NCBI GenBank assembly: GCA_005240075.1
Contig: SBBF01000075.1
Location: 1-43,917, forward strand
Length of the DNA stretch: 43,917 nt
DNA from: Nitrospira sp.
GTDB taxonomy: Bacteria > UBA10199 > SBBF01
Reading direction: 5' to 3'
Position 1 is the first letter of the stretch. The number at the start of each line of letters is the position of its first letter. The notes beneath the pieces are model-generated. The model saw only the letters and a list, made by a program, of their open reading frames with translations, ran no database searches and was not told the origin of the DNA. Below, in pieces: positions 31,576 to 35,014 of the stretch. A program made the position numbers and the translations under genes.

Positions 31576-32040
31576 CTAAATATGTGCTGGGGTTTTGACT
31601 TCATCATTGATAGGATCAAATACTTTTAAGAATCCGAATCGCCTGAAATCCGTATCATGAGTAAAAATGGTAACTATTCCGTTTTCCTTCATGATACCTG
31701 CAATATGACAATCATGGATTAAATTCCCTTGGGCTTTTTGGATATCCTTCAGGGTCTCTTTAACATAAATCGCGTGATCGGGGCCTTCTCTGATCACTTC
31801 CACACTCCTGACATGTAACAGGGCATCAATAAATCTCCACGATTCGTCCCATTTGAGTGGTTTCGACGAAAAGCGAGAATGGGTTGTGACTCTCAGAAAC
31901 TCATAAATGACTGGCCAACACAAATAAGTATTGTCGTTTCCTGTGAATCGAGATTCAAGGAAGGAACGCGCCATGGACGACCGAGGGTCGTCACAGTTTG
32001 CAGCATAAACAAGAATATTCGTATCAACAAGACCGTTCAT
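31576..32040 (-). CDS. vapC: VapC-type PIN-domain ribonuclease toxin
   Basis: A 154-aa PIN-domain protein. The acidic metal-binding residues are visible in GLVDTNILVYA (Asp), YEFLRV (Glu), NLIHDCHIAGIM (Asp) and FTHDTDFRRF (Asp). VapC toxins cleave specific tRNA or rRNA. It overlaps the vapB start-proximal gene by 17 bases. It is convergent with the large plus-strand protein, with a 15-bp gap. Confidence 0.92.
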   Translation of the reverse strand: MNGLVDTNILVYAANCDDPRSSMARSFLESRFTGNDNTYLCWPVIYEFLRVTTHSRFSSKPLKWDESWRFIDALLHVRSVEVIREGPDHAIYVKETLKDIQKAQGNLIHDCHIAGIMKENGIVTIFTHDTDFRRFGFLKVFDPINDEVKTPAHI

Positions 32041-32272
32041 CCTGATCCATTAAATCCCAAAGAAGTGACCGGTCGGCGGGATCAATAGTTGGAATCCCCA
32101 TAGAAAAAGAAGGAAGCTTGACGACATCCGGGCTGCGGGAAGGCCTATCTTCTTGCAGACCCCTACGAACATATATCTTCACCAAATCAGTCACATTTTT
32201 TCCCTCTTGAGCCGCTTTTCGCTTAAGGCCTTTGATAAGGCCATCATCTAAAAGAATGGTGGTGCGGTGCAT
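32024..32272 (-). CDS. vapB: VapB-type RHH antitoxin
   Basis: An 82-aa protein from the ATG at 32272: MHRTTILLDDGLIKGLKRKA, then KNVTDLVKIYVRRGL, a ribbon-helix-helix fold. The C-terminal IDPADRSLLWDLMDQDERS would occupy the VapC active site. An upstream in-frame ATG at 32290 is rejected because it lies inside the promoter -10 region. With the start at 32272, the transcript would be nearly leaderless. Confidence 0.88.
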   Translation of the reverse strand: MHRTTILLDDGLIKGLKRKAAQEGKNVTDLVKIYVRRGLQEDRPSRSPDVVKLPSFSMGIPTIDPADRSLLWDLMDQDERSC

Positions 32273-32309
32273 ATGTATGATATGATACATAAATATTATG
32301 ATATGTCAA
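32273..32309 (-). promoter_or_regulatory. vapBC promoter with overlapping operator
   Basis: The minus strand has -35 TTGACA (32309-32304), a 16-bp spacer and -10 TATCAT (32287-32282). An inverted repeat ATGTAT...ATACAT (32273-32290) covers the -10 element and reaches the start codon. Binding of VapBC there would block transcription. The predicted start is only 2-3 bases from the vapB ATG. Confidence 0.65.
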
Positions 32310-33483: not shown

Positions 33484-33640
33484 TCAAACCCCTGTCTTTG
33501 ATTAAATTATACCTTATTTTTTTGATCGTCAGCAAATGAATAATACTGACGCAATTAGTCAAAATAAGACCACTTTTTATAATTATAACCTTACAGTGGG
33601 TATTATTTTACCTGATTTATTATTATGAAAAGATACATTT

Positions 33641-33741: not shown

Positions 33742-34962
33742 ATGAAAAAAATATTATTTAACCTGGTTCTTGTGTTCTCTTTGGGCGCCATGACCCAATG
33801 CGGAGGGGGTTCCTCCGGTACAAGCAGTGATGACGATGGGGATGATGGGGCGACCGAAGTGAGCGACACGGTGGTGGCTACTACGGGTACCGTATCGGCC
33901 GTTACCGATAGCGTCAGTTCCCTGGTCAGCAGTTTTGGCGGTTCAGGGGGGGGCGCTTTAATCAAAGGGGGGTCAACAGATGAAGGGAAAGGAGAAGTGA
34001 CCTGCACTGACGATTTCTCTGAATGCACCTTCGGTTGTCCGGGGGGGGGATCGGTTACCGAGACCTTCAATGACGACTTTTCCGATAGTGAGTGTGACAT
34101 GGGGGATGGAACCACCGGATTTGCGACCGATTATGAGACAACCGGTACGATGACATTCAACGATTGCGTGATGGAAGAGTGCGGCACAACCATCACGATC
34201 AGTGGAACCAACTCCTTTTCGGGAAGTGGCAGTTTTAATGGCTGCACCGGGGAATGGGATTTTTCGGGAACCTTTAGTAGCGGGGAAGGGGACAACATCT
34301 GTGGAAGCGATCTGACAGCTAGCCCGGCAGATGGAGCGGCCATTGCTGTCGTCTTTGAAATGACCTATGCGGCGAGCGGCAATTTTGCAGATTTCACAGA
34401 AGATGTGAGCGGTTCTTTCGGGGCGGCTGAAGAAACAGCCACTGAATGTACCGTCAACACGTTTGCAAGCTGGCAGGAGCTGGAGGAGCTGTTTGACTCC
34501 CAGCATTCCTGCGACGCGGCGGAAGAGGCTCATCACATTGACGAATGCATTGAAAACTGTACGACCGGCTGTACCGATAGCGGGGAAGATGCCGATGTCT
34601 GCGCCGTGGCCTGCAAGAGCGATTGCTCCACGGACGTTTCCTGCGAAGAGGGGCATATGAATGACTGCGTCGACGCCGGCGGATCCGAGGCTGATTGCGA
34701 AGCGGAAGCGGCGGAGCTCTGTTCCATCGATCCCGAAGATTGTCAAACCGATTGCGTCGACTTCTGCATGGCTGAAGGACATCCGGCAAAGGATTGCGAT
34801 GCCGGTTGCACCGACGTCTGCAGTGGTAAATTTGATGAAGAAGGAGAAGGTTCCGGAGAACTGAATGAAGAGTGCTTTGATGAATGCTCCTCCAGTTGTG
34901 AAAGCCATGGAGAAAGTGCAGAAAAATGTGATTCAATCTGTTTAGATAGCTGCACGATGTAA
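33742..34962 (+). CDS. Cysteine-rich lipoprotein with four 27-residue Cys-hairpin repeats
   Basis: A 406-aa protein. ATG 33742 is preferred over an upstream in-frame ATG because AAAGGGGGG lies just before it. The N-terminus is lipoprotein-like (KKILFNLVLVFSLGAMTQC, followed by GGGSSG), though the lipobox is imperfect. An acidic/Ser/Thr/Gly region follows, then beta-like segments with scattered Cys. The C-terminal third has tandem repeats with the spacing C-x3-C-x3-C-x9-C-x3-C-x3-C at residues 269-295, 334-360 and 378-404. A fourth copy at 301-327 is C-x7-C-x9-C-x7-C, identical spacing with the two middle Cys missing together. This suggests antiparallel helical hairpins held by a ladder of disulfides, or a metal-binding bundle. 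I recognise no named family. Confidence 0.85.
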   Translation: MKKILFNLVLVFSLGAMTQCGGGSSGTSSDDDGDDGATEVSDTVVATTGTVSAVTDSVSSLVSSFGGSGGGALIKGGSTDEGKGEVTCTDDFSECTFGCPGGGSVTETFNDDFSDSECDMGDGTTGFATDYETTGTMTFNDCVMEECGTTITISGTNSFSGSGSFNGCTGEWDFSGTFSSGEGDNICGSDLTASPADGAAIAVVFEMTYAASGNFADFTEDVSGSFGAAEETATECTVNTFASWQELEELFDSQHSCDAAEEAHHIDECIENCTTGCTDSGEDADVCAVACKSDCSTDVSCEEGHMNDCVDAGGSEADCEAEAAELCSIDPEDCQTDCVDFCMAEGHPAKDCDAGCTDVCSGKFDEEGEGSGELNEECFDECSSSCESHGESAEKCDSICLDSCTM

Positions 34963-34983: not shown

Positions 34984-35014
34984 AGGGGCGCGGTCTCCGC
35001 GCCCCTATTTTTTT
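34984..35014 (+). terminator. Intrinsic terminator of the Cys-rich lipoprotein gene
   Basis: A perfect 10-bp stem AGGGGCGCGG / CCGCGCCCCT (34984-34993, 34997-35006) with a 3-base loop is followed by ATTTTTTT. It is a textbook plus-strand terminator and also a member of the AGGGGC palindrome family seen elsewhere in the window. Its T-run overlaps the stop of convergent queA. Confidence 0.9.

Follow-up and report, generated by a model that had tools for sequence, protein, structure and literature searches.

The four Cys-rich repeats at the C-terminal end of a 406-residue lipoprotein probably form a string of disulfide-stapled helical hairpins on an exported protein, a reading to which a probability of about 0.75 was assigned. 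The gene (positions 33742 to 34962, + strand) lies in a window of 43,917 nucleotides, the whole stretch of DNA that was analysed. Its product starts with a putative signal peptide (33742 to 33801, +) that ends at a lipobox-like MTQC containing Cys20, and the aligned homologues have LNQC, LTAC, VTQC, LNAC, and LISC at this position. An N-terminal all-beta domain follows (residues about 85 to 251; 33994 to 34494, +), with AlphaFold2 strands from residue 94 to 241 and 10 Cys, counting as far as Cys257. A fold search with this domain returned generic barrel matches alone, the best being BAM-EspP with a Z of 9.5. Disulfide formation, lipidation, and a surface or envelope location are predicted properties of the protein.

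The repeat array extends from 34546 to 34953, exactly from the first Cys of repeat 1 to the last Cys of repeat 4, as an earlier reading of the sequence only had placed it. A pattern search recovered three exact copies of C-x3-C-x3-C-x9-C-x3-C-x3-C starting at 34546, 34741, and 34873, corresponding to repeat 1 (34546 to 34626), repeat 3 (34741 to 34821), and repeat 4 (34873 to 34953), all on the + strand. The remaining copy, second in order (repeat 2, 34642 to 34722, +), keeps the same spacing as a four-Cys pattern, with His and Ala in place of Cys2 and Cys5. The copies had been described as tandem, which holds in that four stand in a row; the linkers of 5, 6, and 17 residues, however, mean that the array is not strictly periodic. 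The exact six-Cys pattern had no occurrence in 100 dinucleotide shuffles of the window, and the looser four-Cys pattern occurred on average 0.05 times per shuffle, with four copies in 0/100. Residues 265 to 406 hold 22 Cys in 142 residues; when this region was shuffled by residue 200,000 times, one motif appeared in 183 shuffles, two in 2, and three in none. A Gly four residues past Cys3, absent from the earlier description, was invariant in 4/4 repeats and in the one-repeat homologue from genome G002. The repeat region is strongly acidic, with 41 Asp/Glu versus 4 Lys/Arg. A recent duplication of the repeats at the DNA level was rejected, as pairwise identity between them was just 29 to 41 of 90 bases; the repeats are therefore old or strongly diverged. 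At the protein level, when the four repeats and that of G002 were compared, 2 to 6 of the 24 non-Cys positions were in common.

AlphaFold2 was run on the full protein with a 6-row alignment containing five homologues (mean pLDDT 68.7, pTM 0.47; pLDDT 44 to 89 over the repeats in 10-residue blocks) and on the repeat region alone as a single sequence (mean pLDDT 66.9, pTM 0.29). In the first run, helices were placed at residues 256 to 279, 284 to 295, 301 to 311, 316 to 327, 331 to 344, 349 to 360, 376 to 388, and 393 to 404, with two helices in every repeat; each of them contains a Cys triplet or what is left of one. The second run again gave eight helices, two per repeat. The helix pairs anticipated from the sequence were thus predicted with and without an alignment, at moderate model confidence. 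Overlay with Ole e 6 (PDB 1SS3) suggests that the two helices of each repeat pack as a hairpin. Foldseek with the repeats-only model returned 17 chains at E ≤ 10 and none at E ≤ 0.001; 1SS3 had the highest probability (0.75), with an E-value of 3.8 (fourth by E-value) and an rmsd of 2.2 over 37 columns. With VIA-align, the repeats model matched 1SS3 with a Z of 4.1 and an rmsd of 7.4, behind a designed helical repeat (Z 4.5). A fold search with the full-protein model gave nothing at E ≤ 0.001.

CHCH proteins, to which the repeats had been likened, are helical hairpins tied by facing Cys, with two CX9C motifs, one per helix. In these proteins the x9 is a Cys spacing inside a helix, whereas in the lipoprotein every helix carries C-x3-C-x3-C and the x9 is the turn between helices. 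The comparison therefore stands for overall geometry alone, and it missed a much closer match, as the closest known fold is the hairpin of Ole e 6 and the plant 6C alpha-hairpinins. Ole e 6, an olive pollen allergen, has the identical C-x3-C-x3-C-x9-C-x3-C-x3-C spacing and the same Gly after Cys3, and it aligned with repeat 1 without gaps, the Cys and the Gly all matching in position. It is described as an acidic protein of two antiparallel helices with a short loop (PMC8198727). It was also the sole PDB sequence match, weak at E 0.058 for the repeat region and E 0.37 for repeat 1, and the Pfam family Ole_e_6 (PF09253) scored 14.3 bits (E 0.039), under its gathering cut-off of 27.7 bits. Given that score, the fourth rank by Foldseek E-value, and the VIA-align Z of 4.1, the likeness appears to lie at the level of fold and motif, and homology is not claimed. 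Ole e 6 differs in being a stand-alone plant peptide whose long tail is unstructured, while the bacterial repeats are in tandem on a lipoprotein.

The plant 6C alpha-hairpinin motif, C-X3-C-X3-C-X4-20-C-X3-C-X3-C, is reported with a nine-residue loop in 134 of 1057 predicted peptides (PMC11591084). It fits three of the four repeats exactly, and the fourth is without one facing pair. For the 4C alpha-hairpinins, a helix-loop-helix with nested bonds Cys1-Cys4 and Cys2-Cys3 is described, and their Cys motif is given as part of the thionin motif, with a fold shared with scorpion hefutoxin (PMC7191063). Plants also make tandem modular precursors of 2 to 12 modules (PMC7191063, PMC11591084), and both the 4C and the 6C versions were found here in bacteria too. 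The plant forms are defence peptides released by proteolysis, whereas the lipoprotein repeats are probably membrane anchored and strongly acidic; the plant family trait of a cationic secreted peptide from a plant precursor was not seen in this lipobox-bearing protein. The Hairpin Loop Peptides of fungi and insects are likewise reported to have six mirror-symmetric Cys, two helices, and, by model, three nested disulfides, but they differ in their length of about 85 residues, signal peptide, 15-residue loop, and hydrophobic, generally uncharged character (PMC13357843).

If two of the 24 Cys were lost at random, they would be a predicted facing pair in 12/276 cases, about 4%, so the joint loss in repeat 2 alone is weak evidence for pairing. 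Further hairpins were therefore compared. Profile searches elsewhere gave a match (E ≤ 0.001) in 1/58 genomes and matches in 7/298 and 5/377 genomes, and a wider profile matched 5/52 genomes of one class. The comparison covered 42 cores of the form C3-x3-G-x5-C4 in 15 open reading frames (ORFs), namely, 13 found by profile, the window protein, and the G002 protein. L251, which has a stop inside the match, was left out, as were the pattern-scan matches, because these had been chosen for all six Cys. Written as the presence or absence of Cys1, Cys2, Cys5, and Cys6, the observed states were 0110 (32 cores), 1111 (7), 1001 (1), 0000 (1), and 1100 (1). The 1001 core is window repeat 2, the 0000 core is L249, probably a chance match, and the 1100 core is L256, a half-length match and the sole violation, with both pairs broken. 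In 40/42 cores at least one further facing pair was kept with no lone member. Mismatched pair members numbered 2, compared with a mean of 18.3 in label shuffles, and none of 20,000 shuffles was as low, in a test that ignores relatedness and tandem copying although many cores stand in arrays or related proteins. Independent loss of single Cys, which the sequence-only reading had named as evidence against itself, was thus almost never seen, and the facing Cys appear to be kept or lost together, like disulfide partners.

The genome of the window encodes VKOR and DsbA domains with a CPFC motif in one 411-residue ORF, and another of its contigs holds a second DsbA-domain match. The family profile gave 13 matches, of which 11 were clear (E ≤ 5.5e-15). 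Without the acylated Cys, the Cys count was even in 11/11 clear homologues (32, 10, 16, 8, 8, 6, 8, 10, 38, 8, and 8), with the G002 protein cut at its N-terminus. The marginal homologue L167 (E 0.0069) has an odd number, 5. The marginal L163 (E 0.0092), which matched the first 50 profile positions alone, was left out of the count because its ORF runs past the end of the locus.

A profile of six family members matched 8 of 46 phylum genomes at E ≤ 0.01, with G039 marginal at 0.0092. The hairpin profile was clear (E ≤ 1e-10) in 2/46 genomes, namely, that of the window, which holds four copies, and G002, which holds one; weak matches, with E between 0.03 and 0.08, came from three others. The G002 gene ends in one exact hairpin. 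Its syntenic orthologue in G001, with a clearly similar downstream gene start, stops nine residues past the last conserved domain Cys and differs by that one hairpin, and both G001 homologues are without it. The window's genome also encodes a paralogue whose tail at the same alignment position is acidic, of low complexity, and Cys free. Since G002 has one hairpin, G001 has none, and the paralogue tail is Cys free, the hairpin behaves as an add-on unit, and its number ranges from none to four among close relatives. A whole-protein tblastn of plasmids gave no match, and a whole-protein search of the genome contigs confirmed 0/98 pattern stretches. At one further locus (L006, 622 to 1452), a 276-residue regulator-like ORF, perhaps of the TIGR02147 type, lies just upstream of two tandem paralogues of the window lipoprotein that have no hairpin.

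The Cys at i, i+4, and i+8 on facing helices could instead act as thiolates in a store for Cu(I) or another soft metal, the alternative offered by the sequence-only reading. Csp copper storage proteins are four-helix bundles lined by reduced Cys that bind Cu(I); for the lipoprotein, the models give two helices per repeat. The density of 22 Cys in 142 residues at helix spacing would suit such a store, and four repeats could take up many ions, but a thiolate cage has no need for Cys to be gained or lost in facing pairs. The even Cys counts in all of the clear homologues, the VKOR-DsbA protein of the host, the Cys-free paralogue tail, and the two G001 homologues without a hairpin also argue against it. 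As the paralogue tail keeps the charge but not the Cys, a stiff acidic binding or shielding module is favoured over a thiol store, which is considered improbable.

An even smaller chance is given to the array being a precursor of released antimicrobial or inhibitor peptides. Plant tandem precursors with up to 12 hairpins (PMC7191063, PMC11591084) provide a model for this, but the bacterial protein has a likely lipid anchor and strongly acidic repeats, no common cleavage site or loop Arg was seen by eye, and no immunity or export partner was recognised among the window proteins scanned. The same stapled hairpins could also form a purely mechanical, stiff acidic tail with no specific ligand, a proposal that differs from the preferred one in function alone and that we regard as possible but doubtful. 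It would agree with the variable hairpin number among close relatives, the low-complexity acidic tail at the same place in the paralogue, and the poor conservation of the residues between Cys. On the other hand, every repeat has preserved its Cys spacing and loop Gly although the other residues have diverged, which makes selection on the structure probable.

In the preferred reading, that of a disulfide-stapled hairpin string, the exported lipoprotein would consist of a beta domain anchored to the membrane and, C-terminal to it, four hairpins of the 6C alpha-hairpinin/Ole e 6 type. Once the protein is exported, VKOR-DsbA would oxidise the facing Cys to nested disulfides 1-6, 2-5, and 3-4, or to 1-6 and 3-4 alone in repeat 2, and each 27-residue unit would become a rigid, protease-resistant, strongly acidic rod. 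The predicted helices, the paired Cys loss, and the VKOR-DsbA protein support the earlier proposal of helical hairpins each held by two or three disulfides. At the end of the existing lipoprotein, hairpins would come and go as complete units or be cut back, again unit by unit, to two disulfides. Our best guess for the array is a stiff module with negative charge that binds or shields at the cell envelope, although this role is tentative at best.

Tandem four-Cys hairpins with the same nine-residue loop and Gly were found in L253, L255, L259, L260, L263, L264, and L265. Those from the phylum of G063 (L253, L255, L260, L263, L264, and L265) share with the window protein a lipobox-like sequence and the tandem arrangement, but they have the Cys2-Cys5 and Cys3-Cys4 pairs alone and linkers of Gly/Ser, KGDG, or other types. 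Pfam Plant thionin was above cut-off in 4/5 scanned four-Cys ORFs (L253, L255, L259, and L260, but not L254; L263 to L265 were outside the scan), with scores of 26.9 to 50 bits versus a cut-off of 23.6, and L253 and L255 also matched the Hefutoxin family under its cut-off. The six lipoprotein-like ORFs of the G063 phylum carry a DAG-x-WW motif after the anchor. L255 and L260 have a C-terminal cytochrome-like domain (weak NCBIfam match, SO2930 type), and L264 and L265 end similarly, judged by eye. L252, an 849-residue frame, is a DUF1592/DUF1588 planctomycete-cytochrome-type protein with an inserted acidic stretch, in which an exact six-Cys hairpin is accompanied by another Cys cluster of irregular form.

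When the pattern was guarded with the loop Gly, at least 118 stretches were found in genome contigs, with at least 51 matches having an internal stop and at least 88 open; many of the open-frame matches look low-complexity or non-coding by eye. The G002 hairpin was recovered (L028). Among the matches listed, plausible single six-Cys hairpins were seen in L103 (Bacteriovoracaceae), L066 (Bipolaricaulota), L119 and L139 (Actinomycetota), and L130, a small Xanthobacteraceae protein. One Bacteroidota protein family accounted for further plausible single hairpins in L026, L054, L086, L113 (= L248), and L250, and a secretion tail in L248 scored above the NCBIfam cut-off and just under the Pfam cut-off. 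L083 and L097 (Verrucomicrobiota) are possible hairpins. Judged by eye from their sequences, it is plausible that the other hairpin proteins are exported as well. The unguarded Cys pattern matched 7 of 46 class genomes, and a reversed control pattern matched 6/46; the real hairpins were in G000 and in one of four matches in G002 alone, and the remaining matches, which resemble simple repeats or short non-genic frames, were rejected.

Small peptides of this kind, helical hairpins with nested disulfides, are known from plants, fungi, and scorpions, where they act in defence or block channels. Here such hairpins appear as tandem modules on bacterial lipoproteins, with facing Cys apparently gained or lost in pairs. 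A literature search, with most subscription journals outside its coverage, found among the papers listed no title or abstract start describing bacterial hairpin arrays. It is conceivable, though we hold it at somewhat below even odds, that these proteins represent an undescribed bacterial class of exported, often lipoprotein-borne, often tandem alpha-hairpin modules, all sharing the core C-x3-G-x5-C between facing helices, around which opposed Cys are gained or dropped pair by pair. Such a class would have spread over several phyla as a swappable envelope module, and the peptides of plants, fungi, and scorpions would be uses of the same unit that arose in parallel or even descend from it. Common descent of the bacterial and eukaryotic hairpins is not claimed, as a fold of this size could well have evolved more than once. 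The data suggest that this compact fold serves bacteria too, as a repeated add-on module. The arrays provide a natural experiment on the evolution of a minimal disulfide-stapled fold, with specific disulfide pairings predicted, and offer a very small acidic repeat scaffold.

Other Cys repeats were encountered in the same scans. In viral contigs, the guarded pattern gave 71 stretches and 42 open-frame matches; by eye, most of these are C-x3-C arrays without interruption or low-complexity sequence, and all were set aside. Four of the viral-contig frames (L224, L230, L239, and L242; 942, 2430, 794, and 695 residues) have long C-x3-C arrays rich in E/Q/S/T, and we would guess that they are tail proteins. 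In bacterial contigs, L107, L109, and L118 carry Cys-Pro-rich CPxxCPxxC-like arrays, another type of Cys repeat.

Around the lipoprotein gene, both adjoining genes are on the opposite strand, so it is probably transcribed alone. It is flanked by a promoter-like site (33556 to 33583) and a terminator-like stem (34984 to 35006); 4 promoter-like sites were found versus 1.9 expected, and terminator-like sites showed no excess over chance (1 versus 1.8 expected). An Rfam scan of the window gave nothing at gathering scores. Gene neighbours in the window include a SpoIID-like protein, a queuosine synthase, and an inositol monophosphatase, and the scanned window proteins gave no functional hint for the lipoprotein. 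On the - strand, at 31576 to 32290, a PIN-domain protein overlaps a small ribbon-helix-helix-like (RHH) protein, with the RHH match just under cut-off, and the two are likely a toxin-antitoxin pair.
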